Shown here piece after piece: positions 16,750-63,466 of a DNA stretch of 64,000 bases. The stretch lies in contig NC_058339.1 in assembly GCF_905475395.1 (NCBI RefSeq), positions 11,974,001 to 12,038,000 of the forward strand, given 5' to 3'. The DNA is from Chrysoperla carnea. Lineage: Eukaryota > Arthropoda > Insecta > Neuroptera > Chrysopidae. A program made the translations under genes and the position numbers. Below the pieces are notes generated by a model, which saw only the letters and a program-made list of their open reading frames with translations, did no database searches and had not been told where the DNA came from. Every line of letters begins with the position of its first letter. The first letter of the stretch is position 1.

Positions 16750-17056
16750 CTTGTTAAAACTCTGCTAGAGTATAGACGCATTTGTTTTTCGTCTACAACA
16801 ATATCAAGAATTTTATTTTTATCAAAATAAAAACAACAATATTTCAATTATTAATTGTTTACGACAGTTACATAAGTATTTTTGTTTGTGTTTAAATTGT
16901 TACCTTTTTTACCTGGTGAGTACATACAATAGCTGTTTACTTAGTAGTTAGTTAATTTTTGTTTTTGTTTTTGTTTTTAATTTTTTTTTTCGTATATACA
17001 TACTTTTAATAATATACTTTTTCAATATTTTTTTTACTATTATAAACTATTAGGAG

Positions 17057-21400: not shown

Positions 21401-22064
21401 ACTAAGCTCCCTTTCCCTTCTCAAACAAAATTCCATCTCTTCCAAAACTCCATTTCTTATAGTATTGATAAAAAACACCGTACTAAAACTAATTCAAAAT
21501 CGTTTCTCCGTTGCCTTTGTGTGGTGTCCATCACACATTGGTATACGTGGAAACGAGTTTGTTGATATGTTGGCTAGGGACGCAGTTCAAAATGGTGCAG
21601 AAGATAACTCACCACCACCAGCACAAGATCTTTGGGCCGTCTGCAGAACGTCTATGTTGAATGATTGGAACCAAATATGGAGAAATTCAACAAAAGGTCG
21701 TAAACTATATGCACTACAGCCTGCTCCAGCACTTCAAACATGGTTCCATGAATGGGATGTGGGCAGGAAAAATATTACAATGATTGGCCGCCTCAGAACG
21801 GGGCACAACAGTTTACCCGCTCATCTACATAAAATAAACGTTGTCCCCGACACAAATTGTAGATGTGGCTACCCATACTGCGACATAAATCACGTCATCT
21901 TCGCCTGCCCACTCTTTAATCAACATAGACCAATGCTCCTAAGCTCCTTAGCCCGTATGGGTGTTTTTGGTCCTTACTTTATACCCCATCTCCTATCCTT
22001 AAATAATTATGATATCCTCTCTACAATTTGCAGCTTCCTTAATAAGACCCAACTCCCAATTTAA
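18363..22064 (+). CDS. LINE ORF2: endonuclease, reverse transcriptase and RNase H polyprotein
   Basis: 1,233 aa, uninterrupted. The APE-type endonuclease covers about residues 8-230 (QWNIRSLN near 11, SETW near 39, GDLN at 134-137, and a later SDH). The reverse transcriptase covers about 450-720 (SYRPIALAS, FIDVKGAFDNV, LPQGAVLSPLLFN, and catalytic YADD at 651-654). The RNase H covers about 945-1070 (TDAS with Asp 951, the E in SAECVAILEAL, SDS, and the final WCPSHIGIRGNEFVD). A CxC...H...C knuckle starts near 1166. The enzyme nicks the target and copies the RNA in place. All catalytic residues that I can check are present. The ATG lies inside ORF1, 65 bases before its stop, which suggests reinitiation or coupled translation. 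Confidence 0.95.
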   Translation: MDQLASQLNLLQWNIRSLNQNKVNLSLILFSYPIDIVLLSETWLKENSTTKIRGYQIFRNDRYDGYGGTAILVRRGLSAQIIPVESNDRFFQVIAVKVAGISIVSIYNNSSQNIVPLDQLSLMFRNVPEPILIAGDLNYHHPLWGCHASDRGGDILTEFMDSKNLVCMNDGSPTIIPSPQHRSSAVDITFCSPQLSLISHWNILNDSYGSDHIPILITLNHRHSLSQPKHSPRRQCERANWDLYSRSVDDSLPNFIPVDNPLEWYSVFQQTITSAADRTIPYSKPPKKSISPTPWWDNECRIQIKTRKEALKSLRNNFTPERFCTFRRLQALTRRLFKEKKRNSWKIFCESLSRNTPIKEIWNKVKMYSRSINPYPQTPVNQNWPLSFLENLTPDFASIPIQIPFVQNDHPLDCPFETCELEGVLSGLADSSPGPDNISYSMLKNLSDNAKRSFLSALNQLFIHSSVPNEWKHTTIVPILKPNKDPNSHQSYRPIALASCVSKVMEHLIKNRLEWWCEHNNIIPPYSRGFRKKSSTLDNLSILMTDVQIALSENGYLVCCFIDVKGAFDNVDINTLINILTSLSAPPRLISFIYNFLKARYLTVKYQNHLSGPRTAFLGLPQGAVLSPLLFNIYTTGLQIVNQPPIQLLQYADDFVLYSSSKSLQTAVDNVSNALSTLQNHLISINLEISVTKSSAMVFTRHRCNVESIPFLNTSISCQTNVKFLGVIFDKKLNWNSHVDYIISKCTPRINIIRALTKVWWGADQSTLLMIYRQIIRSFIDYGSFLLSPLSNQRSLRLDRVQFQTLRIALGQMRSCPTNSLLIEAADAPLTVRRLYLAKKFFLNQYSSLSHPLIPKLIRLNNHCTNSPYWRNKELPLLVVAYRVFGIIPIYQSLLPPFFSFEFVSRYSKIPVFVDCGLDKNDAVYGSIFVNSTFNNYLDSILPNYTFIFTDASKLDADARVGVAYHCSSSAHSASLSISKFFSIFSAECVAILEALSYVESEGIRKAAIVSDSLSSLSLLKQNSISSKTPFLIVLIKNTVLKLIQNRFSVAFVWCPSHIGIRGNEFVDMLARDAVQNGAEDNSPPPAQDLWAVCRTSMLNDWNQIWRNSTKGRKLYALQPAPALQTWFHEWDVGRKNITMIGRLRTGHNSLPAHLHKINVVPDTNCRCGYPYCDINHVIFACPLFNQHRPMLLSSLARMGVFGPYFIPHLLSLNNYDILSTICSFLNKTQLPI

Positions 22065-35700: not shown

Positions 35701-38700
35701 GTAACTAACTGAACTACAAACTAGACAATAATTTCTATAAGTTCAAAAAAAAGCAAAGACAAACAATTGACTGAGTTGTTGAAATACCCTGCAAAGAAGT
35801 GTTGAATATCAGTGCTTGTATTATTTTTAATAAATTAGAAGGGTTTAAAACAGTTATGGTGGTCTTTCAGCCGCCATTTATTTGGTATTCGCAAATTTCG
35901 AAAACTATTCTCTATATATTTTTTTTTTTTTTCGAGAATGTTTCACAAGACCATTAGTTGAAGTAAATTTTCAACTCCATACCTTGCGACATCACGGATA
36001 AACGGTGATGATTGTACTTCCCCAAACTTTGTACTTCCCCTTTTTCGTTATTAATTAAATCAATTCAAAATTAGTAAAAAAATAAAATAAATATTTGCGA
36101 TTTCTAAGCAAATGATAAACAATTTTATCAAATTTCTGTAACTTTTCATAATCTAAATACTCAATGGCGCCAAAAATATAAAGTAAAAAAAAATATAAGA
36201 ATTTTTCCATGTCATACCTGGTAAATAATACAGATTCAAAACGTTCCATATACCACGCCATACATTTACAGTCCCAATAAAAGCAAACAAAAAATAAATG
36301 TCTGCTATGCATAGTCTTAGTAAACCAGTTGTTTTCTCGCAAACCCATTTCATTAAAGGTTGAATTAAAAATGCTGATATGGTAACGATATAACCCAATA
36401 TCTAAAAAGAAAAAAAAGATCTATAAATTAAAAAAGCTCGTTTATAGTAAAACTACAATTTTATTCATTTTTAAAAAGCTCCTTAAGGGTCTCAAATGAT
36501 CTGTTTAAAAGTTTGCGTAATTTGTGACTATTTTGTGAATTAAAAAACTATTTGTGAATTAATAAAAGTCAGAAGTATGATCTCTTTAACCTGTCAGCAC
36601 TCGCACTATGAGCATTTTGCTCACCCTCGATTAAAAACATAAATAACATTTATTTTTCAAATGATATATGTGGTTTTCTTTCTTCATATAATTTTCAACT
36701 AATCTACAGTTTATAAAAAAAAGTTTTTTTTTCAAGTCCTTCAGAAATTGTGAGAATTTCTTTCACCACGAGAGTAAAAGTGTAAGTAAAAAAAATATTA
36801 ACAGAAATTTTCGGGCCTGCTCATGTACTTTCGGTAGTTTAATGTAAGTCGTACCCAGTAAAATAAAAAAGAGCTGTGTAGAAATATGATGAAATTTATC
36901 AAATTGAATTTAATTATTTAGATTATTTCTCTGCTCTAATATTTTTTACTGTCGCATGTGCAGAACACGTGAGAAAATCACTCATCACATCAGTATTCGA
37001 TTATAGAATTCATATTTTCTTGGACGCTCTCACTTAGCTAGAATTCTTTATGTCAAATGCGGCTTACAGAAAGTTGAGTATAAAGGCCAGATATATACAT
37101 CATTTGAAAAGATATTTCTTCTAAATTCATTATCAAGGCATAATTATGAGTTTTTAAGGAGCCTTTATTTTTCATTATTAGTACGTAGGTATACTAAATA
37201 GGTTCACGGTTTATTCGGAAATAATTTTGCCTCCGATATCTTAAGAAATCAAAGCAATTTCAACTTGCAAAATATACATGACTCAACTAAAAGTGAACTG
37301 TATGTTAGAGTTACACTGAGCAAAATATCCATCATCATTTCCGTTTACTGAGGATACAGTATATAGGCATATGCAGTTTTTGATTAAGAATGATATTTCC
37401 TTGAAGTTTTCTTCAAAGATTAAAGAAAAGACGGCTCATTCAATTGAATTCAAAAAGGAAGTTTTTTTCTTGATATAAATTAATGACTTTAATTAGCTTG
37501 AGTCAATATTATTTTTTTTTAAATATGCTTACACATTAATACATTTATTTAATATTCTGTGAATGCTATTATATAATTAACTTATTAATCATTTCATAGT
37601 TTAAAAAAATGATATAATACAATTAAGTTATTATCAAAGAAGGTTACTTTAATAACATATTTTAAGAAAAGTTAATCAATTATAAGATTAAGTAAAGATG
37701 GCACTAACTATTTAATAGATGAATCTATTAAATAGTACGTAAATATATTCGTACCTTCAAGAGACGAATGATCTAACTAGCAAGTCTAAGTCTCAATCTA
37801 AGAAGCTTTTATTCATTTAGTCTAAACTAAGATAATAAACAAAATTGGTATTTCCCCTAATCGCCTTAAATCTCATACGATGCAACACGGAAGCCAAGAT
37901 TGTCTCACATAAAATAAAGAAAATGAAACACAAAAGTAATTTTAGGCATTTATTAAATCAAAAAATCTATTTCGTGGGTCTCATTCCAGAATAATAAGGT
38001 TTAATATATTTTTTATTGTTTTAGGAGATTGCTATTAAGATTACACCCAATTTTTACCAGCAAGATAGCTATAAATTCATATTTATGTAATTGAATTTGT
38101 GAAATTTAAGTAAGACCTTGGCTATGTGTATGAATTAAAAAGTAATAAAATAAAAATTATTGTTTAAGACTACTCTATACATTTTGAATGTGCGTGAAAT
38201 CATTCTTTTATTTGCGTGAAACTTTATTTTTTTAGTTTAAGTTTAAGTCAGTCAAAGAATGATTTCACGCCAATTAAAAATATATATAGAACAGTCTTAA
38301 ATAAAAACTATAAAAAGTTTTTAATTTTCCAAATTTAAAAAGTATCTTTAAATGTATCTAAATTTTTAGTATCCAAGAACAGTGGTATCTACATACATTT
38401 AAAAAAATGTATCTGTATCTATATCTAGACATATTTTACTGTAAGTATCTGTATATCTATATCTGGATACATTTCAAAAGTACATCTCTGGCGATATCAC
38501 ACTAGCATATCACCAACCAAACCATTCGCCTCAAGCGTATAAACGTTCGATTGTTCTCTAATTTGTGCTTCTGACCTTTACTTCAACGCGTCTTTAATGA
38601 CGGACTCGAATCAATATTATCCTAATAGTGACGCAATTTTAAGCTTTTCATAAATCAATTTGAAAAACCAATAAAAATTAACGATCTTGACATTATGGCA

Positions 38701-44700: not shown

Positions 44701-46881
44701 TTACGTCCTAAGCACGCTTTAAAAATTTCAACTTGATTTCTTTTTTCGTTTTAGAGTAATCGTGATGACAGACAGACGACAGACAGACAGACAGACAACC
44801 GAAAATGGACTAATTAGGTGATTTTATGAACACCTAGTATACCTTGGTTTATTTCATATACATGGTATAAAAAGGTAATTCAGAAAAATCTGACACAGAT
44901 AAGTAGATAAGCGATGAATTTCATTTCCAGAATTAATTATTGTTAATGGACCAAATAGCACTGTTATCATGAATTTATAAACAATGATTAAAAAATTGAT
45001 TTATTTCTCAGTTCATTCAACTAAAGTCAATATTTTATATATCTACTAGGACACATCATTCTTCCCACTAATTAATTATTATCAGAATAAAATTATTTAA
45101 AATTTATGGTAATTTGCATGAGAATCAAAGTTTTTAATTATTTTTGATTATTTATTAATTTATGAAACTTATTTAATGCGGTGTAAAAAAATTTAGAGTC
45201 CACCAGAAAAGTTAAATAAAGATTCATTATCACTTTTAGAATTATGACAAAATTAATTTAACTATTAGCTCAGTTGGTTAAGGCGTACCAATAGGGTAGC
45301 GGGTTCGATTCCCGCCGTCGCAACACAATTAATTTAATTAATAGTTGTGATGGGCTGGTGTAGTGCATGGTATATGCATGAAGGAGGTGTACTCAACCTC
45401 TGAAATTGAGGAGCTGATAAATGCAATTACAAGCTTAAATTAATGTCAAAAAATTATTTAAAATGACCAAAAAACCTTACTTGATTACCTAACTAAAGAC
45501 GCATCTCTTCCCAAGATTAAACGAATTATTAAAAATCGAAAAAACTCCAGTAATAGATTTTAGATTAATTTTGATAGATTTTCTTAGGTATATTTAGTCA
45601 ATCTTAAATTGAAATAATTATTTTTTTAACCTCCCCGAACATAATTTCAAAGTTGATTTTAGATTTTGAATTTGCTTAAATATCTTAAATTTGAAAATAA
45701 TCTGCGTGATTTTTTTTTCTATGAAAGCTTTTCTTAATACTTGCTTTCATATCAAAATTTTAAGTAATTATTTGAAATATTTTAGAGTATTTAAACAATT
45801 TTGTTTTTATTCAAAACTAAGATACAATTAATTTATTTAGTCCATTAATTTCATAGTAGAAATGTTTCAATCTAAAATAAGCCCATAAGCTTAACGTATA
45901 TAGCGTTCGTGTTTGGAAGGGTAAAGGTCGAATTTGGGGAATTTATTTTCTGTCACCTAAAAATCGGCAGTTCTTTATAATTTCAGAATCAAAATTATAA
46001 AAATTGTATTAATTTCTGGCAATTGGAGTTGTTACGCGGGGAGATCAAATCGTGATTTAGTTTGATTAATTAGTTAGAAAAAACAAGAAAATTCAAATCT
46101 TACCACACTGCCGATTGCCGATGATCCTTCATCATCCGGATATAAATAAATGTCGCAAATAACCCAAGCGCCTCTCCAAACGAAAACCACCAATGTTCCA
46201 ATAACGAATACAGAAAAAAGACAATCCAAGACATATGCGGGTCGATTTTTTTCGCAACTCTGTAACAATAGAAAAAAACTATTAATCACAAATTTAATAA
46301 TCAAAGAAAAGATTTACTGGAAAAATTTGAAATAAATTATGGCTTACCGGCACCCGATAAAAAGTAGGTATTTCAAAGTAAGATTGAACACTATCATTTA
46401 CTATACAAAATGGTACCGCTAATAAATTTCGTGTACAACGCATTAAAATTAACGCCACAACACTAGCAATTAATGATGTTAACAAAAGAATTTCTGATTC
46501 CATATACGTATCCAGCAATAACCAAATACCACGCCATGTATTAACGCAAGCACATGCAAATATAATCGTATAAAGTCGTGAACCAATTAAGTATGTTAAA
46601 CGTCTTTTATCTGGATCCAACCATTTTTCAAAATTATTTTGATATAATCCAGCAATAATATGCCCACTAAAACCAAATATAACCGATACTAATGCACTTG
46701 TAAATGGATCTTCGGGATAAACATAAATTGACATTAATTCCCATACAGCACGCCAGTAACCAACAACCGCTGGTGATAATATAAAAATTGCAAGACTTGA
46801 ATCGAGTACCGATAATAATGCATAATGTGCTGGTGATTTCCCTTTACCCGACACTGTTAAACCCGCTGTACTTCCACGCAT
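32744..46881 (-). CDS. fusl: Fuseless: multi-pass membrane protein of presynaptic terminals
   Basis: Exons 46881-46348, 46259-46104, 36401-36218 and 33141-32744 join in phases 0, 0 and 1 with GT-AG junctions into 423 aa. In Drosophila, fuseless is needed to cluster calcium channels at synapses. The protein has about eight membrane helices in four repeats, each marked by WR-x-x-W at residues 43, 116, 206 and 278. Three of the four are followed by D/S-x-Y and P-(E/D)-D. The exon 1-2 junction falls exactly between the two halves. The last exon has the VLVRGVYIDAEEP block and a Cys- and Asn-rich cytoplasmic tail. Introns 2 (9.7 kb) and 3 (3.1 kb) are filled with repeats. A polyadenylation signal lies 60 bases past the stop (32679-32684). 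Function is from the family; the exon chain is inferred. Confidence 0.85.
33200..33475 (+). repeat. Dispersed repeat, copy 1 (inverse of about 39825-40095)
   Basis: Shared blocks in order: TATATAAATGAACCC, CTTCTGGT, a GAACGGATGG block, a run of AAGTTAAGAAAGTT, then TGCGCTCCCACCATATTTAT. The partner copy has the same blocks on the other strand. It lies in fuseless intron 3. Confidence 0.7.
34160..34290 (+). other. GC-rich island with a 33-codon open frame in fuseless intron 3
   Basis: A compact G+C-rich stretch stands out from its A+T-rich surroundings. An ATG at 34169 opens a frame to a TAG at 34268-34270 whose product starts MGPQWQWPPEPLYEIPQGFG. I do not recognise it. It may be a fragment of a mobile element, a small exon or a micropeptide frame. 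The reverse strand also reads partly open. Confidence 0.3.
36809..36955 (+). repeat. Dispersed repeat shared with 60485-60635
   Basis: Both copies share GGCCTG, a GTACTTTCG block, CAGTAAA, GAAATATG and AATTTAATTATTTAGATTAT, in the same orientation with moderate divergence. No termini were fixed. Confidence 0.65.
37707..37736. repeat. Perfect 14-bp inverted repeat
   Basis: ACTATTTAATAGAT and its exact complement are separated by GA. It is a short cruciform-capable site in fuseless intron 2. Confidence 0.7.
38158..38305. mobile_element. Small MITE or foldback with arms of about 50 bp
   Basis: The left arm, 38158-38209, includes GTTTAAGACT and CGTGAAATCATTCTTT. The right arm, 38251-38305, includes AAAGAATGATTTCACGCC and AGTCTTAAAT. 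The arms are imperfect inverted copies around a 41-base middle. No coding capacity. Confidence 0.7.
39825..40095 (-). repeat. Dispersed repeat, copy 2, with an inner inverted repeat
   Basis: Reverse-complement partner of 33200-33475. Inside it, GGTGGGAGCGCA (39838-39849) faces TGCGTTCCCACC (about 39899-39910), giving a stem-loop. It abuts the probable LTR at 40096. Confidence 0.7.
40096..40625 (+). mobile_element. Probable solo long terminal repeat
   Basis: A 530-bp unit starts TGTTACGGAACTGCC and ends GGGCCTAACA, so it has short TGTTA...TAACA inverted ends. ATAT flanks it on both sides (40092-40095 and 40626-40629), consistent with a 4-bp target duplication of gypsy-type elements. No internal coding region or second LTR is present. 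The A+T-rich flank makes the duplication weak evidence. Confidence 0.5.
41697..41716 (+). other. tRNA-like T-arm with a perfect B box
   Basis: GGTTCGAGTCC matches the RNA polymerase III B box and sits in a CAGG/CCTG stem. No A box or acceptor stem is found at the expected distance, so this is at most a SINE or tRNA remnant. Confidence 0.3.
42311..42874 (+). repeat. Dispersed repeat family A, long copy 1
   Basis: Begins near AACAATTGACTGAGTTAATT (an inverted-repeat head), runs through ACGGACGAACGGAC, ATGG(A/C)CTAATTAGGTGATT and GTTACAAACTTGGGAC, and ends in a TATATACATGGTATAA tail. The 56241-56791 copy is nearly identical. Shorter copies are at 44640-44876 and 50680-50835. Heads alone occur at 15411 and 35761. 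No coding capacity; it looks like a non-autonomous element. Confidence 0.8.
43726..44160 (+). repeat. Dispersed repeat family B with an internal direct repeat
   Basis: A block with TTTCGATAAAACTCAGTA, GGTAATTTTGACCCAAAAAG and TCAGGTGCATTTCTTGAC occurs near 43756 and again near 44045. A related inverted block lies between them. The same family lies inverted at 50285-50600, and a part lies at about 58100 inside a Helitron. Confidence 0.75.
44640..44876 (+). repeat. Family A repeat, truncated copy
   Basis: Matches the 3' half of 42311-42874 from CCCAATTGACCT to the ATACATGGTATAA tail. It has an expanded GACA microsatellite and an internal deletion. Confidence 0.75.
45262..45430 (+). mobile_element. 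tRNA-derived SINE
   Basis: The head has an A box (TAGCTCAGTTGG) and a perfect B box (GGTTCGATTCC) with a sound T-arm. Its 3' strand, CCGTCGCAAC, has no matching 5' acceptor strand. The unrelated body GTGATGGGCTGGTGTAGTGC runs through a CAACCTCTGAAATTGAGG hairpin to TGATAAATGCAATTA. Transcription by RNA polymerase III is inferred from the boxes. It lies in fuseless intron 2. Confidence 0.75.
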
Positions 46882-49364
46882 TTTAAAAGCTTTGGTGTCT
46901 TTTATTTAAAAAGTTTATTTAATCTTTTAAATAATTAAAGAATACTGATTTATTTTTAAATAATATTTTTAATAATAAAATATCATTTAAAAAATTCCCA
47001 TAAGTGCTTATGGCACTTTGCAAATTTAATTTCTTGCTGTCGATCCAGTTTCGAGTTTTTAATCAATAAAACTATTTACAAAAAAAATCACTTTTATTTT
47101 AAAAATAATTTTTAACAGCACTTAATATAAAATAATTCTTTTGGCACTATCACAGCACTTTGGTAAATTCAAAAAAAATAAAATAAAATCACTTAAAAAA
47201 TCGAATAAATAAGAGCAAATCGCAGTTGTGTTTTGTGGAATGAATAAATTTGTATAAAATCTTTGATATTTATAGTGAAATGATAAAAAATGGAGCACTT
47301 AACGATTTATCTATTTTTTTTGTGTGAACAGATACGAGATTAATTATTATGTGACGACAAAAAGATTATTAATTAAGCTTTTGGACGACAATAAATAATA
47401 TACATGATTGTTCATAAAATGTATTTAAATTATTGTAAACACATTACAAATTTTTGTATAAAGATATGAGAGTTGTCAGTCAAATGTTTTTTTTTAGGAG
47501 CTTCAGAGAGATGTTATCATCGGTACGTTTCAAAGTTCCAACTGAATCTGAATTTGAATATCAAAATCAAACCTAAAAAATCTCTGATTATGATCGATAT
47601 TTTCTTGGATGTTAAACACCAGTAATAGTAATATTTATTTCGTAGAGTTGATGATGGTAATTCGGATGACATTGTGACTTGATTTATCTGTGTGTATGTT
47701 GCTAATTTTCGACTTTAATTAATTTATAACATTTGATCCATATTTTTAATTAAATGATGATGTGCACAAGTTTTTGGTTCACTTAAAACACATTTAACGT
47801 TTTTAATTTAATGATGGATGTTGCCGATGTTATAATAAATAATAATAAATAAATAATTCATTGAATATTATATATATTTTTTTTTGTACATATTATTATC
47901 AATATTATGCGTCCGCCATAATGGTGGACATAATAAGGGGATACACGAGACTATATTATCATCATCGTTGTTGTTGATAATGTTTTGTATATATGTGGTA
48001 CTCGTATATATTGTCTTATTTGTAAATCGGGGGTCATATACTATACTAAGCGTATAAACAAATTATTACATTATATACTTAATTCTTCATTTATCAACCG
48101 AATATGTTTGTATATCATCTAGAAATAAAGACAAAGTGTTTTATAATAATAGACCACTAAAGTCAATTTATCATAACAACAGACGGAAAATATGCATTAG
48201 GTATTATCAGTCAATGGTTACTATCAATATATGAACAATATGCTAATTTGTTGAGTTAATTAGTCCTTAAAATTATTCCTTATAGTTCATATTGTTTTTT
48301 TACTGTGGATGTCATATAAGAGAGAATTTTTCGAAATTCATCCCCTAAAGAGGTTAAATAAGGGATGGAAGTTTGTATGAAAATATACATATACATACCG
48401 TCAGTCATTTTGGAGTTCACAAGAGATAATTACATGAGAAACATGCACAGCTAGATGGTGCAACAGTCTCAATTTCAGTACATCTAGAATCAACGGCAAA
48501 TGATTTTTAAATTATGCCAGACATTGAAAATGTTTGATGTTCTTTGAACTTAGAAATACAAGGCAGTTCACGGCTAGACGCAACAAAAGTCCTACATCAA
48601 AAATTTCAACAATATACGAGCTATAACTAATCCAAAATTTCAGTAGATCTATATCTTATGCATTTTAATAGATATATAATGATATACGTATAGAGGAAAT
48701 GACCCCCTAAGAAAAAATGTAATTTATAGCCTATTCGAGATATGTATAAAGTCGAAATATTATTCAGGTGTTGCAATATTGGCATGCCAATTTCTTTTGA
48801 TTTGTTCAAATTTTTAGAACTATTCAATATTACTCAAAAGGAATCGTTTTACTAACCTTGTAAGAATAGGTGGGTAAAATGTATTTTTTACCAAAGAGTT
48901 TATGTAAAATATTAATTGTTCTTTTACATAATTACATCAACGATTAGTATATGAAAACAAAAATCACTGGTAAAATCATCTAAATTGACACATTCAAAAC
49001 CCGCACATGATGGGGGATCATTTTACCTATTATAATTTTACACACAAAATAGGGATCATTTTACCCGTAATGGCATATTTGTCTCTTCGATTCAGGAATC
49101 AAGTCACTTCGATTCAGGTATAATCAAAATGCACACGAAAATAAAATTGTATTATTATCCTTGAGACAGTTCTAAGAACTTCTACAAATATGTTGAAACT
49201 TAAATATCCGCATTATAAATGTTTCTTTGTAACTTGTAAGGATGCTTCTTGAAAAGTTTTTGATTGATATATATTAATATTTCATACTAATATGCATTTG
49301 AAAATAGTAGTTACATTTTAAAAATGCATAAAAAATTTCAATAAATCATACATTTTTGAAGAAT
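46882..49364. other. 5' flank of fuseless and intergenic DNA; nothing else recognised
   Basis: A+T-rich. A short hairpin, GTCCGCCATAATGGTGGAC (47911-47929), is the only ordered structure noted. It presumably holds the fuseless promoter and 5' UTR. Confidence 0.4.
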
Positions 49365-49761
49365 AAATATGAAAGAAAGGTTGTTTGTTTGTTTGCTTAT
49401 TTGTTATGCTTTCAAGCATAATTTACTGAATGGATTTGAATGAAACTTAACAATAATAAAGCTCATACATCAGAAGAATACATTAGTTATAATAAAACAT
49501 GAGGGTGAAGGAGATACAATTTATGGACATCTGTTATTGAATTACCATGTAACAGATACTATAATGTATACTACGAATCCGAGGCAAACAATCTCCTAGG
49601 AAAATTAATTGATTTACGGAAGAGGATGGGTTCAGAGGAGTGTAAAGGAAAATCAATATCTTATGTGAACATGATCCATGGGTGCATAAAGAGTGGATAG
49701 CCAAGGAGGAATCAAGGAGTTTCTATAGAATTGACCAGCGAAACGGGCTGGTCACTGCTAG
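49365..49761 (+). mobile_element. Helitron-like element with an intact 3' end
   Basis: The 3' end has a perfect 7-bp hairpin, GACCAGC...GCTGGTC, then ACTG and CTAG followed by T, the Helitron signature. The 5' end near GAAAGAAAGGTTGTTTGTTT is degenerate, with no clear TC. A related 5' part (CTGAATGGATTTGAATGAAA, GCTCATACATCAGAA) lies at 51345-51560. Confidence 0.65.
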
Positions 49762-50284
49762 TTTTGAATAATTTGACCTCGTTGCAAATTGTTAGACTAA
49801 TTAATAGTAGTAATTTAAAAACAATTAGAATATTATTTTACTAAATCAAGACGATTTGTTTAAATATACAACAGAAAAAATTAAGATTCCATAAACATAC
49901 CGTTTTACAATAAATTACAACTTGTGACCTTGAAACTTACGTAGCGCCATGGTAATAATAACATTGATTGATTAAATAGATCAGTAAAATTTGAAAAAGG
50001 AATTTTTGTTTAATATTCCCAAATAATTTATTATTTTAATCATTACTTAAATTTTTCTTTTAAGACAAGAAAGTTTTAGATGTTTATAATCAAGAGCAGT
50101 CTTCAAAGATTTATGCTATGCGAAGCAATGATTTCAAGGCTTCTTAAAAAAATTACTTTCTTTAACAAAACCAATATAATTAAGGACATTTAATACTTGA
50201 TTTTTCACCCTTATCAAAAGTACAACCAAGCAAATTTTATTTGCTTAATGTTAATATTACTTATAGAGTTTAAAGAAATTAGAT

Positions 50285-50600
50285 TTTTCTTCCAGGATTT
50301 AAGCAATATCGCAATATTTGGATCGATTTTAGTCCGTATCTCAAAGACTATTCGACCAGTCAACAAATGCAAGCGATTTTTGTACTTTTTGGGTCAAAAT
50401 TACCTAATATAGGTGTACTGAGTTTTATCGAAATTAGAGATAAAAAAAATTTTTCGATTTTTTGCAATTTTTTTAAGGGGTACCCCTTTGCAAAAATCGA
50501 GAAAATCGGAAAGAAAATTTTGTTTTGGAATTTGATGAAACTCAGTGGATGGGGTATTTTTGATCCAAAAAGTATAAAAATCAGGTTAGTTTAATGATTA
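50285..50600 (-). repeat. Family B repeat, inverted copy
   Basis: Reverse complement of much of 43726-44160 (ATCGATTTTAGTCCGTATCT, TTGTACTTTTTGGGTCAAAA, GATGAAACTCAGTGGATGGG). A family A tail follows it at 50680-50835. Confidence 0.7.
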
Positions 50601-50679
50601 GGCCTATAGAAAGTTACAATGTCAGCGAGTATGATATTTACAAAAAAATGTTCGGTATTTACCCATACTTATAAGGCAG

Positions 50680-50835
50680 ACGAACAGACGGCACACAACC
50701 GAAAATGGACTAATTAGGTGATTTTATGAACACCTATATACTAAAATTTTGTTGATAGCATCAATATTTTTAAGCGTTACAAACTTGGGACTAAACTTAG
50801 TATACCTTGGTATATTTCATATATGTATATACATG
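50680..50835 (+). repeat. Family A repeat, 3' fragment
   Basis: From ACAACCGAAAATGGACTAAT through GTTACAAACTTGGGAC to the TATATACATG tail. Confidence 0.7.
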
Positions 50836-51344
50836 TTTCTTGCTAATAGTTCACTTAAGTTCTAAAAAACTTTATTTTACAAAACAGTCAATATCAGTTG
50901 ACTGTATTATTATATTCAACAAACATTGACATTGTTCTACTTTCAGACATTACATTTCAAACATGCACGAATCCAATTAATGCAAAATGTACAAACAAAA
51001 GTAAAAATAAAATAACAAAATTTACATTGATTTGTTTCATTTTTAATAGAGCAGCTTTTCTACTTGTAGTTTTGTGAGTAAAATGTAAAGAACCCTTGCT
51101 CATAAGGAACCCAAATTGAGAAAATAAACATTTCTTATTGCAAAATTGCCGCATTTACTACTAACCACCCCTCATTTTTAAGGAGGTTGTAACAACATCT
51201 TCCTTTTAATCAACCTTAACGTACGCACTCTTTGTTACGTAAAGTTAAAGATTTTCAAAGGGATTTTTGTCCAAATTGAATCGTTTTCGAAGAAGTTCAA
51301 AGCGTATGCAGTACAAACTTTCAAATAAAATAACATTGCTTATG

Positions 51345-51790
51345 TAGCTAGCATATAGATATGTGAAAGTAAGGTTGTTTGTTTGTTACGCTCTCACGCC
51401 AAAACTACTGAATGGATTTGAATGAAACTTGACAATAATATAGCTCATACATCAGAATGAGCTTTAAACTATAAACATATTTTTGAAAAATTATATTTAT
51501 TGTCTTGACATTTCATAAAACAGGGTGAAGGAGACACAATTTATGGACATACATACTTTTATATGTGTAAAACATTCGAAAAAGTGTACTTTTGATTATT
51601 GCATATTCATTGAAAAGAAGTAGGTTTAGTTTCACGATTAGTTTTAATCCTATTTTCTCTTTTTTTATTTCCATTTTTCAAGCAATAGTTAATATGTTTC
51701 TAAACAAATTTATTTTTTTGTAAGATGTATGTCTGATAATCTTGGTTGAACAGATGTCCATAAATTATATCTCCTTCACCCTGTTTGTTT
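51345..51790 (+). repeat. Helitron-related 5' part and a nearby inverted repeat
   Basis: 51345-51560 matches the start of the 49365 element. Its GGGTGAAGGAGACACAATTT block (about 51525) is repeated in inverted form at about 51755-51785. The region between and to 53700 is A+T-rich with nothing else recognised. Confidence 0.55.
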
Positions 51791-53756
51791 CATATTATTT
51801 TAATTACTTTTTGATTCTCTTTGCCAATTATTTAAGGGCAAAAATGCGGGTCGAATCTGCGGGTAAAAGCGAGTAAAAAAATAAATAATTCCTGTTTGAC
51901 ATTTTACTTGCGATAAATGCTCAAAAAAGTGGTTTTTATAAATTTTTGCTCAGAATTCTTCGAAAACTGCTCAGTTTGCTCTATAGAGTAAACCAAAAAT
52001 AGTTACTGATAATAAAAAAAGTAGTGGTCTGATAAAGTAAAACACACTTCACTCGTAAAAGTTCAACAGAACACATATCATTTATAGATGGCGTACATTT
52101 TAAGTTTTAAATTCAAATAGATAAATGAATTGTAATGTTATCATTGCAAAATTGTAATTATTAGCAATACATTTTACTTTGATTATTATCGATAAAGATT
52201 ATGGTAAATGAATCATCATTCATTTTTTAAATAATTTCTTTTGAATATAATTAAAATCATCTCTATTTTAAGAATACATATTAATAATTTGTAGTAAAAT
52301 TTCGACAATCATTCAAAAAATACGACAATCCTTTAAGGTTTTTTTATTTTTTTTTTTATATTGATTGTGTTATTTGTAAAGCTTAGTCTTTCCACTTGAA
52401 TTATTTCAATAAAATAATTTTTATTTTCAAATAACACGAGCTCATTTCGTGTTAAATAATAAAATCTGTATTTATAACAGAAGTCATAATTTAATGTTAT
52501 TTCCATCTAGAGGGTCTTTTTGAGCCGTTTTTACTATTTAGAAGTAAGGCAATGACACTTGTGTCATACCTGTACAATTCAGGATACTGTACACAAAGAG
52601 TCTTGCAAACAGCGACGTAGCTATCATAGGAAAGAATTATATACAAATTGATTGAATATTTTACGTCCGGTGACTTTGCACTAAAATTTGTTTTCCTCTA
52701 AAACGCATTGTTTTCCTCTAAATTGGAAAAAATTGCAAAAAATTGTGGAAAACGAGGAAAATCGATTATTTTTCCCGAAATTACCCTTTTTTCCTGTGCA
52801 TATGAAAATTGCTGCCTCCAAAACTTCAGTAAATCATATGAATTTTCATATAATTTGCAGGGAGTAGTTAGTGTAGAATCCGATATAGAAAAGCTCGGTA
52901 TGGATATTTGTAATACCCTGTATACTTCGAAGCTATAAGTTAATTTATGTACGAAATGCATTTGACAATTTTTTATTTTCCCTCAAAACATTTCTAGCTT
53001 TTATTTTTGGGCTATACTGCTCAGAAATATGATTTAATTTGAATAAACTGCTATATTAAATTTCACTTAATCGGTTAATATTTTAAAACACACAATTTAT
53101 TTTAACTCACAAAACCACAACAAAAAGGTTGAACGGAATTTAATTAATCATAAAACTAAATAACTTTTTACCTAAAGAAAAATACATAGTATTTGTCAAT
53201 CATTATAACACAACTTAAGTTCAATTTCATTAAATTCATCAAATTTAAACTTAATTAATCGCTTCTTAATTTTTTTCCTTCTAGCAAAACGTTTTTTATA
53301 GATCATGTTTCAAATTAAATTAAATATTTAATCACAATATGATTTTACCACTTTCTACTAATAGTTTCCACAGCACATGTTTGTCGTATCGGATAGTAGC
53401 ATAAAATAATAATAATTTTCAAAATAACGTGATACCTATTCGCTGCGTGACAAAAGTTTAAATTATTAACAAATGTTTTTGTAGGGTTGTGGTTGGTATA
53501 CTACCCTAGTTAACAACACTAAATATAAATATGTAAATATATGTTTATATGGAAAATAAATTATATTGAGTGGGCTTTTCAATGGAGTTTTTAAATCTAC
53601 GCTATTGACTTTTACTTTTTTTGTATACAAGACCAATAAGACCCATGGTTACCATCTCGTATGTATTACTTTGGTTACACTAACTACCAATTGCCCTCGT
53701 TATTATTTATTCTCCACATTTCTGCATCAAAATATAAGAGCAACCTCTTATATTGT

Positions 53757-53808
53757 GGTTCCGATACCGGGAATCGAACCCGAGCCTCCTAAGTGAAAGC
53801 CAGGAAAT
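53757..53808 (-). tRNA. tRNA-Glu(UUC)-like fragment, probably a pseudogene or SINE head
   Basis: On the minus strand, CCTGGCTTTCACTTAGG is a Glu-type anticodon arm with TTC. It is followed by a variable loop, the B box GGTTCGATTCC in a T-arm, and ATCGGAA. The D-arm and 5' acceptor are missing; instead a GTAAGA...TCTTAC hairpin precedes it. It is not a working tRNA gene by this reading. Confidence 0.55.
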
Positions 53809-56240
53809 GTAAGAGAAACTTCTTACAACTGCTTAGTATTATTTTTTATGAAATTTCGTTTGTTTAATTAGTTCTAGAAATATAATCCTTATCCGTCCAA
53901 GTAAGTTGAGTACCCTTTCTACGAAAATAGTACTCAGTAATCAATGTAACGATAATCGTTTTAAGTGGGATGCTTTTCTTTTAATGTACTACGTTTTAAA
54001 AAAGACTAAAAAGTATAAAATAATCAAATAGTTTTAAATATATGGCAGAAATAAATTTTAGAAATGTGGCGTGCTTTATATATTTAATTTTTTTGTTTAA
54101 TAGCGAAGAGGATAACGACTTTGACCTATATTATGTTCATGAGATCAATTTTAAAAGATAGTGTCCATCGATCAATCCCTATAAATCGTGAATTTTCTAT
54201 TCTATATACAGGGTGTTTCATGACTCGATGGACATAGCTTAAGAGCGTATTTTTTTGACAATTTTAAGTCGAAACTGTCTTATATACTGTTATCCAAAAC
54301 TCTACAGTTCAAGAGTTATAGGCACTATTGAATTTAACCAATAAAGTAAAGACATTGTTGAGTAAAGTAGTTTAAGCAGGCCCGTGCACAAGGGAGGGGT
54401 TTTGGGGGTCAAAACCCCTTCCATTGAGAATCTGTCCACGTAAATTTTGAATTGATAATATAGTCCTGTAAATGCTCCCATTTACGAGACGCATTTCCAC
54501 TGACGAATCAGATATCCATGCATATTTTAAGCTCGGTACATTCTTTGACTTTTTTTTTGAGTCTTGTTCTTTGACTTTGTTTGAAAGAAGTATTCATCTG
54601 CGAAGTGTGGAAGCTAAGGTTCACCTCATAAGAGACTCAACGGTTGAATATACAGACCGATTTAGTTGAAGATTATATATCGCATTTTTAATCATCGCAA
54701 TATTTTATCAAATTTATCTTGTCTCTTTTTAAATGAAATGAAAAAATATTATGAAAACTCTTTCTCGGAAAAAATTGCAGATTTCATCAAACACTATTTC
54801 CTGCCAAGCTAATACTATACTACCTTAATTGTATTTTTCTGCAGTAAAAATATTTAACTATCCGTATTATACATAAATACATAAGTACTTATCATAAAAA
54901 TATGTTATGGTAAAAATCGATGTAATACTATTTCCAAGAATATATGAAAATACAAACTCTTCCATATGTCTACCGATCAGTGAATATCTAATTTTAATAT
55001 TAAACTGACAATAATATTATACGTTATTATTCTAATCAATTCACCTTTTTTTGTAGTTACTTACATTTTGCGTTTTCTTATACAGTTCATTAAATAACTA
55101 TAAAGAGTGTCCCGAAACTACCGCATTTGAAAGGCTATATAGAAGACACAGTGCGGATTTAGATGTTTTGACACTCTAGTTTGATGAAAGCCATGCCGGT
55201 TTATAAATATAACTATTTACTAAAACAGGCTCATAGTTTTTTTTACAGTTTTGACTATTATAGACAAACAGCCAATTTTTCAGAAGTCGAATTATCCCTT
55301 AAAAAATTGTCTATTTTTGAATTTTTTTTTTTACTTTTTTTTAGTCTTCATTTTGCACGTTTTTTGTAGCCAGCTGTATTTATTCTTTTCTACTATCATT
55401 CACAGTTAATCGTTGAATAATTAATCTTTGATAATTAATTATGAATAAACAATAATAACAAAGTATCCTCGCGTTTTTAAAAACGAAATAAATTCACTAT
55501 CATTTCATTTCATAGGACAATTTTTTAACAAAATATGAAAATACCTTAAGGTGATTGTAAACTTACAGTTTTGCAAAAAAGTTTTGGTTTATTGCACGGT
55601 ACATACATATAAACCAAATACATGCTTTGTAGTCAAGTAATGAGATATTTTTAGCTTTAAAATACCACGCAACTACAAAAATATATAATATATTGTGTAC
55701 AAGTGATGCTTATAAATTTGATAATATAGATATCGCTCTTCAATCATCAATACTTTAACTATAATCGTCTCTGTCATAAAATGATGGATCTTCGATGAAC
55801 TCATAATTAAATTAAAATTTTGTTTTTATACCATCGGTAACCTTATATTCTTATGGTATTATTATAAACTACAAGATTGTCTAAATATTTTAGATAATTT
55901 TTTATCACACTCTCTAGATTTTTTGATATAGAAATATTCAATTGAAAAAGATTTTTGAAAAATTTTGTTAATCAAAAAATGTATTTATAAAGTTTTATTC
56001 AAATCCCTAGTATTATTCAATCCTTACATATCTCCTTAAAAGAGATGACAAGAAATCTGACAAAGAAATACGGATAATGTAAAAATTTTAAACTACTTAT
56101 TAGACAGATATTGTTTTTGGACAAAATGGCAATTAGTTACTAATTAGACAGGTCCCTAAGTAGTATTAGCCCAAGGTCCCACAAATTCACGAACCGCCCC
56201 TGGTCATTGATTAAAAACCATTGTAAAATAGGCATATTAT
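53809..56240. other. Intergenic, nothing recognised
   Basis: A+T-rich. A GGCCCGTGCACAAGGGAGGG block near 54378 resembles the start of the duplicated unit at 59.3-60.4 kb. No exon seen. Confidence 0.4.
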
Positions 56241-56791
56241 TTAAAACAAGTGAAACAAACAATTGACTGAGTTAATTGTTGAAATACCATGCATAGTCAG
56301 TGTTGATTTCTTTATCACATTACACATACAAACATGTGACACATAACTAATAATCAAGTATAGTACATATTATAAAATTTACGCCTAATGGGCGCCCTCA
56401 CGGGTAAACAGTGATGTTTACGAAAAAATGTTTCAAACAAAAGTTGTTTAACTTTTGATAAGGGACATTTTTAAACTTTTGTTCTATCTCTAACGGTTTA
56501 CAAGATGGGTCCTACGGACCCAAGACCCAATTGACCTATGATGCTCATTTACTAACTTGAACTCACTTTTTGCGTCCTGAGTACGCTGTAAAAATTTCAG
56601 CTCAATATCTTTTTTCGTTTTTGGGTTATCGTGTCCACAGACGGACGAACGGACAACCGGAAATGGCCTAATTAGGTGATTTCATGAATACCTATGACAA
56701 AATTTTTTTCCTAGCATCATTATTTTTAAGTGTTACAAACTTGGGACTAAACTTAATATACTATGTATATTTCATATATACATGGTATAAT
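56241..56791 (+). repeat. Family A repeat, long copy 2
   Basis: Nearly identical to 42311-42874 along its length, in the same orientation, with small deletions (for example one GGAC unit). Confidence 0.85.
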
Positions 56792-57297
56792 TATAGCATA
56801 TGATTTTATGTGTAGGTTGAAATGAAAGTATATAACACAAAATACGTACTTGTTTCATAGTTTAGTTTTCTGTATATTCCAATTCCACACCGGAAGGATA
56901 ATAATGTCCATAATAATTTCTATTTCAATGTCTGGCACGAACATTAGTACCTACGAGAATAATTCGATGCCAAGATATTTTTATATTTTAACAACCTTGA
57001 ACTTGAAACCAGGATGTTATATGCAAATGTATGTTTTATGTTGATACTAGCTGACCCGGTGAACTTCGTATCACCTGCAACTTTTTTTTTTACAACTTTT
57101 GGTTCGTGATTATGTCAACCTTTAGACTCTAATTTATTTTTGTCAAAAATTAACACTGGTTGTATTATCTACGGTTAAAATGGTATTAGGTTATTAAATG
57201 AAACTTGTTGGTCATTTTAACATGTTTTATGTGTTTTATTAACACAACAAAATATAATCAATACATAACAAAACATAATAAATATATCTATGCAATT

Positions 57298-57501
57298 TAA
57301 AGCTTTTTGATAAACTACGTTTTTAGTTTGGTTTTTCGGAGCATAAATATATAAAGACGATGGCTTTCCTACACGTGAACACGCGACATATAGTTGTCCA
57401 TGCGAGAAGCATGGAAATTCTAAATTAATCCCGCAAACTTGCAACGACTGGCTTTGCGATTTGTTTATGATCATCGCAAAGGCCAGGCGCACGGGTATGT
57501 T
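57298..57501 (-). pseudogene. C-terminal end of a Helitron Pif1-type helicase
   Basis: The frame reads PVRLAFAMIINKSQSQSLQV, then FSHGQLYVACSRV, then NVVYQKAL. These are the late SF1B helicase motifs (V and VI) at the end of insect Helitron RepHel proteins. The usual INK-(S/A)-Q-G-Q has Ser for Gly (NKSQSQ). A long unrelated hydrophobic stretch precedes it. It is a remnant and cannot be active. Confidence 0.88.
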
Positions 57502-57897
57502 AATAAACATACACAATATAAACAATATGGGAATAAACACAAATAAAACAAAAGTAATGACAAACATTCTTCTTGAGTTTCTTCTTCAAATTTTTGGTTA
57601 TGTTTTACAAACTGAATATAGATAAATAGGATAACTTCGCAGTATACTTGTACGTATCTTCCTATATATTGAACAATTTTGGAACACTCTTGCAATCTTG
57701 AGGATCAAGCGTAACAATAGCGATTCCGATACAAAATTAATAAATTTTGATTTCTTTAGTTTAATTTTTGGTTTTTTTTAAATTTATTTTAGTTTAATTT
57801 TGAAAATCGGTCCAGCCGTTTTTCAGTTTTAGCGAGACTAACGCACAGCAATTTATTTTTATATATACAGATAAATAAAATTGAAAAAAAAACCCAA

Positions 57898-58015
57898 CTC
57901 AATCCACACCCACGCCCACACCCACAACTACACCCACACCCACTCCCACACCCACACTCATCCCAACCCAACCGAACCTAACCCAGCCTAACCCAACCCA
58001 ACCTAACCCAACCCA
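57898..58015 (-). repeat. CCCACA and CCAACC/CCTAACC minisatellite inside the Helitron
   Basis: The first half is repeats of CACCCA and CCCACA; the second half is repeats of CCAACC and CCTAACC. The latter looks like a variant of the insect telomere repeat (CCTAA), but the unit length drifts. Confidence 0.65.
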
Positions 58016-58384
58016 ACCAAAAATTACAAAAATTGTGTTTTTTTGAATTTTTTATGATTTTTTCGATTTTTACAAATTGCAAAAGTGTAAAAAAATTTTT
58101 TGTTTCCAATTTCGATAAAACTAAGTTTATAAGGTAATTTTGACCCGAAAATTACAAAAATCGTGTTTATTTGACCATTAAATGAGTAATTTTCGAGATA
58201 TTTTATGAATCTGACTGTAGAGCCAACATTTTCATTCCGTTCTGTCTCTGAAATTATTCCGCATTGAATCTAATTATTCCGAAATTGTCTTTTTCATTTC
58301 AATTACGATTCATTACTGTTTCGGACAGTAATAAGTTGGACAAAGACCCAAGATATTTGTTATTCATTTTATTACATTAGTTTT

Positions 58385-58740
58385 TTAACAAACATTTAAA
58401 ATTTATTGTAAGAGAACACTAAATTATAAAATGCATATTCTAAACAAAGATAGCTCTAAGCATATATTAAATAGATATAGACATTACATTTAATAAATAA
58501 AGATCGACATATAAGATTTAAATGTAAGTAGGTTTAAACTATCCTTATTTAATAAAAAATTATAACAAACATTTATAATTTATTGTAAGAGAACACTAAA
58601 TTATAAAATGAATATTCTAAACAAAGATAGCTCTAAACATATATTAAATAGATGTAGACAGTACATATAACATTTAATAAATAAAGATCGACATATAATA
58701 TTCAAATGTAAGTAGGTTTGAACTATCCTTGTTTAATAAA
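58385..58740. repeat. Direct duplication of 177 bp
   Basis: ATTGTAAGAGAACACTAAAT occurs at 58405 and 58582. The two units stay alike for about 170 bases (GATAGCTCTAA, TAAATAAAGATCGACATATA, GTAAGTAGGTTT). It lies inside the minus-strand Helitron. Confidence 0.85.
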
Positions 58741-59279
58741 TAAATGGTATATGTAGAGTTATGAAGTCCCACAGGAATGCTGTCGAACGGGATAAAAAGT
58801 ATCCTATGTTATTCTCGTGGCTCTAAACTACCTCCCTGCCAATTTTCAGCTAAATCGGTTCAGCCGTTCTTTAGTTATAAGTAGTGTCACTAACACGACT
58901 TTGTTTTATATATATAGATTTAAAACCAAGTTGAAGGAAACAATTGCATTTAGTCGCTTCGTATAGGCTGTGTTTGCTATAAAGAACTCAAACGATTTGC
59001 TGAATTATGGCAGTTCTGAATAAATTTACAAGTCTATAGATTAATAAAAATTTTAAAAATGAAAAAACTCCACTGCGTTAAATAGAAACTGAATAGAAAA
59101 AAGCAAGTTCAGTAGTTTATCAAACAAACTTTAACAGTCGGAATTAAAAGTTAAATCAGCTCAAATCTTTCCACTAATGAGTCTCAACTGTTAAAGTTGC
59201 TATGTAAACTATTGGGCTTGTTAGTTTTTCAAATTCGATCAGAAAAAAGCTACCAGCGAAAATTAACAGCTTCTAATTC

Positions 59280-60026
59280 TTTACAAAAATTTTGCCTCCT
59301 TCTCGAAATTTTCAGAATTTCTCGGTTGCCTTTACTTCCCGTACTTAGAATAAGTTTTTTTATATCTAACAGGCCCGTGCGCAGGATCATCGAAGGGGAG
59401 ATTTTTTTGAATGGACTGCCGGAATAGAATTACCTTTAAAAAAACTCATTACAAAAAATTAATAATCATCAAAAATAGAAACATATTAATAATCTTTACC
59501 CCCAAGAGATTAACTTTACTATTTTTAGTTACATCTTACTTATTTTTGGAAAAACGAATTAAGAATTTAATCGTATTTATGATTTATGGAAGTTATAAAT
59601 GATTATTTACCTTAAAAAAATTTGTTAGTTAACAATACGTTAGGATTTTTCTTAGTATTACCAACATACTCAAGATTTGATAAGAAATAATAATATTTGA
59701 TTACAAAAAAAATCAAAAGGGATTTCGAGAAGGATATGGAACTGGTTTAAGTAGCAGCATAGAGCTTTTCTAGTATGAGGCATATATACCATCCTTCTTC
59801 ATTGAGGGTTAAGGACGGATCTTATGAATTATAAAACGCACGATTTCCACACACGTCCAAGACCTTCTAATTCTAATCGAAAATTCTCCCTTCATCAGAA
59901 GAAATTGGAATTTCTCGTTTGCCTCAACCCCCCGTACTTTTTATACACCTAACAGGTGTCCGCAAGACATAATCTAAGAGGGAGGGGAGGAATTTTTACT
60001 GGACTTCCGGGATAGAACTACCTTAA

Positions 60027-60059
<33 letters not shown>

Positions 60060-60440
60060 AGAAAAAAAACCCAATACAAAAAATTAATACTCTCTTCAAA
60101 AATAGAAAAGTAATTAAAAAAACATATTAATAATCTTTACCCCCCTAGATTTACTATTTTTAGCTACATTTTACTTATTTTTGGAAAAATGAATTAAGAA
60201 TTTAATCTTATTTATGATTTATGAATGTTATAATTATTTATCTTAAAAAAAATTTGTTAGTTAATAATACACTTGGATTTAAGAATATTTTTTCGTAGTA
60301 TTACAAAGAAATAGTAATATTTTAATACATAAAATTCAAAACTTATTTCGAGAAAGAAGCGGAACTGGTTTAAGTAATAGTATCGAGCGAATTTTCTAGT
60401 ATGAAGCTAAAAGCACTTTAAATTTTCTTCTTCATGGAAG
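59280..60440 (+). repeat. Two diverged tandem copies of a unit of about 600 bp
   Basis: CCCGTACTT occurs at 59338 and 59931, and ATATTAATAATCTTTACCCC at 59482 and 60123. The copies share CAGG.CCG.GC, GGA.TGCCGG-like, TTACTTATTTTTGGAAAAA and AAAAATTTGTTAGTTAA blocks. Copy 2 has gained a 27-base A run at 60031. No coding capacity seen. Confidence 0.75.
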
Positions 60441-60484
60441 AGCGCACTAAAGCATTCCAACACCAAAAAGTAAAGGTTAATTTA

Positions 60485-60635
60485 CTTCGGAAATTTAAAG
60501 GCCTGTTTGTGTACTTTCGTTAGTTTGACATAAGTGCTACTCAGTAAATTATAACACCTTGTGTTAGAAATATGGTAAAATTGGATAAAATGAATTTAAT
60601 TATTTAGATTATTCCTTTGCTCTAATATTTTCACT
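60485..60635 (+). repeat. Dispersed repeat, partner of 36809-36955
   Basis: Same block order as the partner copy. From here to 61653 the DNA is A+T-rich with no exon recognised. Confidence 0.6.
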
Positions 60636-61653
60636 CTTAAACATGATTCAATAATTTTCATGCAATCAAACTATTTTTAATTAGCCAGTGTATTAAAAAA
60701 TATTTATTTAAAATTATTAGGTCAATCAATAAGGCCAATCAGTAAATCTTTGTGCTACACCTTATTTTACAACAATTATATCAAAATTTTAAAAGAATAA
60801 AGATCAAAGATAAACTTTGTATTCATATCTGCGATATGACGTACTATTTTGGGTATAAATATATTTTTCATATAACTATTAATAAATTGTAATCATGTAA
60901 TTAAAAGCTATAAATAGCTCAAAATTTAAAACTTTGTCTACTAACTGAATAAATAAAGACGAATTCTTAGAAAATTATATTTTTAACTTTTGATTATTGC
61001 GAACACAACACCTTGACTGTGTAAATGATAACAATAAATCATAAAATTTTTAAAATTACGTGTTATTTGGAATTTTTTTGAAATATGAGTATGTCACATG
61101 CATCATATGATACATTTTAGCCATCATAGAAACTAAGAACTCAAAATTTCAATTATAAAAGGAAAGTGTAACCAAAAATGAGCCCCGTCACGCTAGAGAA
61201 AGTCAACTTTTTTTTATCATATTAAAATTTTATCATGTGAAAAACTACAAACAATGCAATGGATTGTAATGAAAGTTATTAAATTTGTAGTAACGATATT
61301 TACCAAGGAAAGTCCATAATTTAGAGCCAAGAATTGGACTTGAAAAAAAAAAGTCTTTTTCATCGATCCTTGATAAGTATTCGAAGTTTTAATTTAATCC
61401 GACACATTTAAATGGATGAAAATCACGTTCAAATATTCCGTAACAGAGACACATCATATAAGCTAATAAAATCGTGTTCAAATTTTAGACTTATCGATAA
61501 AAATGGTCCATCTTGCATATACGATCGAAATGAGATTAGTAATAAGTGATAATGATAAGTATCGATTTTGCGAGATGCCTTATCAATGAAGTAATATATG
61601 ACTTACATAAGTAAAAAGCTTTTTACTACTCTAGAGTAATTTTCAATACTTAC

Positions 61654-63466
61654 ATCTGTTTTAAATCTTGTTGGGTACACAAAGCTTAATTTTTCCGTAT
61701 CCAATGCAATTAATAAGGGCGGTGCAAAAACATTACGTGTTGATCGAAAAACTACGAGTAAAATCCAACAAATGATTCCAGCTATGGCATTTGCATTTTT
61801 ATTATGGAAATAGTCGTTTAAACTATCCAAAATTAACCATCCAGAACGCCAATGTAGAATAGTAGCAATCAAAAAACAGTAAGTATAGAAGCGACGGTAG
61901 AGCTGAAATAAAGAAATGTATTTTTTAAACTGATTTAGAGCTGTTTAGTTTTGAGTTCTGGTTATGAATTTTGAGTATACATACCGCGAAACAAATTTAT
62001 GGATGATTTTCTCAAACAAACAAAAAAAGATAGTCAGTCATGGGGTCTGTGACGGAAGTGAAAACTTAAAACTTTGAAATAACTGTGTTTTTTTTCTAGC
62101 TGTGTTTTGATAGTTTGCGTATTCACGAGTTTCTGTACAATGGGTGTCAGAAAGAAAGTGCGACAGCCGACTATTCAATTTCAATTTAATTTTACAGTCT
62201 TCAATAAAATCAATAAAAAAATTATGATGGTAAATACTATCTGTATACGAAATTTCATCAAAATCGTTAGAACTGATCTCGATATTATTTAAGAACGCAA
62301 TCTAAATGTCTTAGAGGGTACCGCCTTATGTGTTATAAACTGAATTATAAAGAACACAGATAACAGACTCGTATTTATTGTTCATTATTTTTCAAGATCA
62401 CATTGCAATTATAGGAATTCTAGTTATTACTGCATTGAAATTACTTAGCGCATTCCACACTTGTCCTACATATTTCATTTCATTTCTAATTGTGTATCAG
62501 TTTAACCGACCAATGGACGCGAAAATTTGCACACAAATATCGTTTTTACCTTTGAAATTTCCGAAGTAAGATGGATCGAAATGCAGTTTTTTGCAATACG
62601 TTTTAGAAGGTATTTATAAACTTTGTAGATATTGCAGATTATTCAGAAATAATTTCCCTCGTTTGTGCCTCAAAAACTGCATTTTTTAATGTATTTTTTT
62701 AACCCCCCAACTAAAAAAAAGGGATGTTAAATTATAAGTTATGTGTGTGTGTCTGTCTGTGGCATCGTAGCGCCTAAACGAATGAACCGATTTTAATTTT
62801 TTTGAACTTTAGCTGATTCACCCATATTTGATATACATATACTTTTTAAAGTTTTAAATTAGTAAAAAATACTTTTTAAATGACAAGTTTTTATTGTACT
62901 CAAAAGTAGAAAATAGTTTTTTTTATGAGTCACTCATACCCGACTTTTTTTAAAAGCTTAAGTCGCTATGATTCATTCTTAATATTATAAATTGTGCACC
63001 TCCAGCTTTTACAAATAGTCGTGTATGAGTGACTCATAGAAAAAATTATTTTCTACTACAAAAACTTGTCCCTTAAAAAGTTTTTTTTATTTATAAATCT
63101 AAAACAAAAGATAATACTTACAAATGATTCAAATTGATGTCGAATTGTTTTCGAACGTTTAACAAAAAAGATTTTTTGTATATCACGTGTCATCGTAAAT
63201 CCGCAATTTAAAGCTCCACCAAAGCAAAATGATAGAGCCATTGGAAAATAGTCTTCGTGTAAATCCATTTCCATCCATATTGCACGCCATATACTAATTA
63301 CCGATGGTGCAATTATAAACAAACAAAAACCATAATCAAATACTTTTAAAAATTGTTTCTCTTTATATGTAAATATTATTAAATCTTTTTCATTGAAAGA
63401 AATATCACTATCGTTTTTTAATATGTTTGGAATTATTTGAATTTGATTCGTTGATTCGTTGTCCAT
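61654..63466 (-). CDS. Fuseless-type N-terminal half (paralogue or alternative first exons)
   Basis: Two exons, 63466-63122 and 61902-61654, join in phase 0 into 198 aa with clean GTAAGT donors. The product lines up with exon 1 of fuseless (178 aa). It has the WR-x-x-W marks at residues 60-64 (WRAIW) and 133-137 (WRSGW), FRSTRNVFAPPLLI against the RCTRNLLAVPFCI of fuseless, and a Y-P-T-x-(F/Y)-x end. About four membrane helices are expected. It ends at a phase-0 donor, as fuseless exon 1 does, but I found no later exons of its own between 46.9 and 61.6 kb. It could be a tandem paralogue with diverged or missing exons, or an alternative 5' part spliced into fuseless exons 2-4. Confidence 0.75.
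62872..63080. repeat. Foldback in the intron of the fuseless-type gene
   Basis: The arms 62872-62943 and 63016-63080 are imperfect inverted copies (CTTTTTAA.., GACAAGTTTTT, GTAGAAAATA, ATGAGTCACTCAT). ATGAGTCACTCAT at 62925-62937 is itself an odd palindrome containing an AP-1-like TGAGTCA. The right arm ends 42 bases from the exon 1 donor. Confidence 0.75.

Follow-up and report, generated by a model that had tools for sequence, protein, structure and literature searches.

A diverged second N-terminal half upstream of fuseless in Chrysoperla carnea, a candidate alternative 5' unit for that gene

The 64-kb window (the whole stretch of DNA analysed here, part of contig 3 of a 559-Mb assembly) carries the fuseless gene as four coding exons on the minus strand that together encode 423 aa. 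Exon 1 (46881-46348; 178 codons) supplies the N-terminal half of the protein (N-half) and ends at a phase-0 donor, and the C-terminal half (C-half) is encoded by exon 2 (46259-46104), exon 3 (36401-36218; phase-0 acceptor, phase-1 donor) and exon 4 (33141-32744), which includes the stop codon. Homology also links one half to the other (33% over 133 aa, 75.9 bits). Six copies of the motif W[RK][GAS]xW occur in the six frames of the window, four of them in fuseless (46104-46881 and 36218-36401) and two in the upstream copy described below, with none elsewhere, and we infer that there is one motif per two-helix repeat. An AlphaFold2 model of exon 1, made from a five-row alignment, gave four long helices at low confidence (mean pLDDT 56.8), and a PDB sequence search returned no match at E 10. 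In the fly, Fuseless is described, in the passage of PMC4413985 that mentions it, as presynaptic and involved in the exocytosis of synaptic vesicles; the source cited there for this role has calcium-channel localization in its title (reference list, PMC4413985). The portions of the literature searched contained no account of how the two homologous halves work. CG14020 was considered as a fuseless paralogue and dropped, as it is described as a predicted sulfotransferase.

Upstream of fuseless on the same strand lie two further exons that together resemble fuseless exon 1. The first (u1; 63466-63122, minus strand) starts with an ATG, runs for 115 codons, contains the first W-R-A-x-W repeat and ends at a GTAAGT donor; the second (u2; 61902-61654, minus strand) has a TTTCAG acceptor (sequence before u2: ATTTCTTTATTTCAG) and 83 codons, contains the second W-R-x-x-W repeat and ends at a phase-0 GTAAGT donor. 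Both reading frames are open, the splice sites are canonical and both junctions are phase 0; joined, the exons encode 198 aa, and the chance of 198 open codons at the base composition of the interval between the two N-halves is 3e-8. The joined product matches the Pfam Fuseless family (PF15993) over profile positions 2-157 with E 6.6e-21 and 75.4 bits (curated cut-off 25), and fuseless exon 1 covers those positions too, with 174.9 bits. Taken singly, u2 scored 54.6 bits and u1 only 20 bits, which is under the family cut-off and was obtained at profile 133-198. That match raised the possibility that u1 is a piece of the third repeat, which we rejected because the N-half fits u1 better (38 bits by tblastn with the fuseless N-half and 23 bits with an N-half profile, versus 12.8 bits with a C-half profile).

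The preliminary description had given these two exons as a 198-aa equivalent of fuseless exon 1 that lies upstream on the same strand, ends at a phase-0 donor as exon 1 does, and is in phase with a shared C-half. The coordinates proved exact, the two N-halves end flush and without a gap in the alignment, and the phase-0 donor of u2 fits the exon-2 acceptor at 46259, which is in phase with both N-halves. The u2 donor sits at the alignment column homologous to that of the exon-1 donor. As GTAAGT occurs only five times on the minus strand of the 14.8-kb interval, the u2 donor counted, chance would rarely place a perfect donor at just this column. An intron separates u1 from u2, and fuseless exon 1 is without such an intron.

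The two N-halves are identical at 51 of 167 aligned residues (~30%), and fuseless exon 1 is much closer to the family profile than the upstream copy is (175 versus 75 bits). Among 45 identical residues (M and W excluded) the same codon is used at 27, where random usage predicts 25.5; the synonymous sites appear saturated, although the reading frame and the family motifs stay intact. Given such random codon choice where the residues agree, the upstream protein would have been held by selection long after the duplication, and the codon pattern argues for long purifying selection, yet not for present-day function. Judged by its ~30% identity and its randomised synonymous codon choice, the upstream copy is old. 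In sequence comparisons it is grouped with the N-half and not with the C-half: the match to the N-half is ~65 bits, against ~28 bits for an alignment reaching into the C-half, and for this reason, together with the end position common to the upstream copy and the N-half, we rejected the idea of an ancestral half-gene predating the fusion of N- and C-halves. No relatives were confirmed in viral and prokaryote contigs, where 14 and 40 pattern matches failed tblastn.

The interval between the two N-halves (46882-61653, minus strand; ~14.8 kb) holds repeat copies near 50.3-50.8, 55.5-56.0, 56.2-56.8 and 57.0-58.9 kb. The copy at 57029-58920 was compared with the best 40 of 2544 assembly candidates, the long ones of which are 88-98% alike, and among these 40 there was no other copy for the segment from 58.9 to 61.65 kb. 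Elsewhere in the window, overlapping long open frames of 457 and 1234 aa at 17054-22064 (plus strand) look by eye like a non-LTR retrotransposon, and an inverted duplication at 9327-10497 carries near-identical frames on opposite strands. Among the neighbouring features is an 831-aa open frame that lacks a Pfam match at E 1 (L010:6456-8948, minus strand); going upstream from u1 on the minus strand, it is the first frame to reach 85 aa. Two tandem exon sets at L011:2144-7450 (minus strand) resemble enoyl-CoA hydratase by eye, and a single 1351-aa open frame at L013:4946-8998 (plus strand) similarly resembles a copia-type retrotransposon polyprotein.

It had also been noted that no C-half belonging to the upstream exons was seen in this interval, and searches by tblastn, profiles and family motif agreed in finding none there. 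A tBLASTn of fuseless exons 2-4 against 46882-61653 gave at best 20.4 bits over 28 aa, on the wrong (plus) strand. When a C-half profile was run on the 2275 window frames of at least 18 aa, the four fuseless exon frames scored 60-308 bits, u1 12.8 and u2 7.5, and all others at most 4.8; within the interval nothing besides the u2 frame exceeded 3.6 bits. With a profile built from three halves, no interval frame scored above 5.7 bits, against up to 7.7 bits for chance matches elsewhere in the window. The W[RK][GAS]xW motif is absent from all six frames of the interval, and the eight of its 56 hydrophobic minus-strand frames that were run against Pfam gave no Fuseless match. As a positive control, the fuseless N-half profile picked up u2 at 30.9 and u1 at 23.1 bits. 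We also simulated diverged C-half exons (simple substitutions weighted by BLOSUM, no more than one indel in each exon, complete exons 2 and 3 plus the initial 50 aa of exon 4, threshold 4.8 bits). At 30, 25 and 20% identity, at least one of the three was detected in 150, 149 and 120 of 150 trials, respectively, and two in 41 of 150 trials at 20%, figures that overstate the power where exons are split; with the second, three-halves profile (threshold 7.7 bits), at least one simulated exon was detected in 134 of 150 trials. Over the whole assembly, five PF15993 matches were found among the best eight candidates, all inside the window. A search with the C-half returned only the four fuseless exons (best four candidates scored), and one with the upstream N-half returned, among its best eight, itself, fuseless exon 1 and a match at E 2.3 that we take as chance; no C-half was found upstream of 63466 in the assembly searches, with the best eight and best four candidates scored. 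An assembly gap hiding a C-half was rejected, as neither the window nor the adjoining 35 kb contains any N.

We favor the possibility that the upstream exons are an alternative 5' end of fuseless itself and share its C-half. This is the likeliest reading of the locus, although we hold it with somewhat less than even confidence. According to this model, u1 and u2 would represent an ancient duplicate of the N-terminal four-helix half of fuseless, transcribed from a separate promoter before 63466. Fuseless exon 1 would serve as a starting exon without a usable acceptor, and because of this the u2 donor (61654) would join the exon-2 acceptor at 46259. The predicted product would be ~443 aa long (198 + 245), with a different N-half and the common C-half. 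Consistent with this idea, PF15993 2-157 is covered by either N-half, and the two end flush, each at a phase-0 donor. Searches of fair power detected no C-half in the interval, and the five PF15993 matches among the best eight assembly candidates all lie in the window, in agreement with the searches that used the upstream N-half and the C-half. The 1019 bases before the fuseless ATG contain no YAG site with at least 11 pyrimidines among 17, while the four real acceptors have 11, 12, 13 and 15 of 17. As the kilobase upstream of exon 1 offers no ordinary-strength acceptor, one would predict that transcripts begun at u1 skip exon 1, and in-frame joining to exon 2 could follow. Several observations count against a shared C-half. 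The predicted intron from u2 to exon 2 spans 15.4 kb, two weaker YAG sites (10/17 pyrimidines) do lie within the 1019 bases before exon 1, and the interval holds 48 other acceptor-like sites with a pyrimidine content at least that of the weakest real one (11), so that a different 3' end is possible for the u1/u2 transcript. The divergence of the upstream copy, the score of u1 alone below the family cut-off and the intron between u1 and u2 that exon 1 lacks also speak against it.

One such different 3' end would be a short terminal exon or a retained intron, with u1 and u2 then encoding a lone four-helix half-protein that pairs with itself or with Fuseless. Read-through past the u2 donor would add just 16 residues before a stop, and the homology of the two fuseless halves means that one half could in principle self-pair; we nevertheless consider this unlikely, since a perfect donor is retained at the end of u2 and the 800 bases past the read-through stop contain a single AATAAA/ATTAAA hexamer, which is below the interval rate of 4.7 per kb. 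We give a similarly low probability to the upstream copy being a full paralogue with its own C-half inside the interval, one that escapes recognition because of its divergence or its division into small exons. Detection did drop at 20% identity in our simulations, and given that the upstream gene carries an intron that fuseless lacks, its remaining exons may also be split. Against such a C-half, at 30 and 25% identity, near the level of the N-halves, at least one simulated exon was almost always detected; the family motif is absent from the interval, and none of the eight hydrophobic frames (of 56) compared with Pfam matched Fuseless.

It is also conceivable, but quite improbable in our judgment, that the upstream exons are a recently dead remnant, namely a once-complete tandem copy that has lost its C-half and is now decaying, the loss being too young for its exons to have closed. 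Such a history would fit the insertion into the interval of several repeats that have close relatives elsewhere in the assembly, as well as the greater distance of the copy from the family; against it stand 198 open codons, a start codon that is intact, perfect donors at both exons and a good acceptor, all preserved after synonymous saturation.

If the upstream exons do use the shared C-half, one locus could make two presynaptic membrane proteins in which the N-terminal four-helix halves are swapped whole on one C-half, a proposal that we put forward still more tentatively than the shared C-half itself. The fuseless halves would then be modular units, with N-halves ~70% different in sequence fitting the same partner. 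A natural half-exchange of this kind would show that the halves are separable and would point to the half that bears a variable contact; it would also mean that variable first exons can encode part of a transmembrane core. No paper on fuseless isoforms or paralogues was apparent from the titles and abstract starts searched, and the passages on fuseless or fusl that were covered do not mention isoforms; the arrangement may perhaps be unreported so far.

Within the Fuseless family (PF15993; Drosophila fusl), the 198-aa upstream product resembles other members in its match to profile 2-157, well above the cut-off. It differs in that only an N-half was found upstream, with an intron splitting its two repeats and with positions 158-298 of the full two-half profile (2-298) missing; the upstream copy would have the full family architecture only if the fuseless C-half is shared. 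For the alternative of a lone half-protein the analogue would be the SemiSWEET half-transporters, half-sized membrane proteins of a two-half family that act as dimers, the likeness being one of architecture. In the protocadherins the constant part is the cytoplasmic tail and no half of a transmembrane core, unlike the C-half that fuseless is predicted to share. The part of PMC1885805 that deals with the protocadherin alpha and gamma clusters describes first exons that vary and are each joined by splicing to a constant set downstream. In UGT1 and UGT2A, as outlined in the same source (PMC1885805), tandem homologous starting exons code for the N-terminal part and common downstream exons for the C-terminal part, human UGT2A having two variable exons. 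UGT1 and UGT2A are enzymes with known spliced mRNAs, whereas here we have a membrane protein and predicted splicing, with N-halves that are only ~30% identical and a variable part that is spread over two exons. By analogy, the layout of u1/u2 and fuseless is nevertheless that of UGT1 and UGT2A as outlined there (PMC1885805): homologous candidate 5' units lie in tandem on one strand before one constant exon set, and the variable units end flush at the same place and in the same phase (0).
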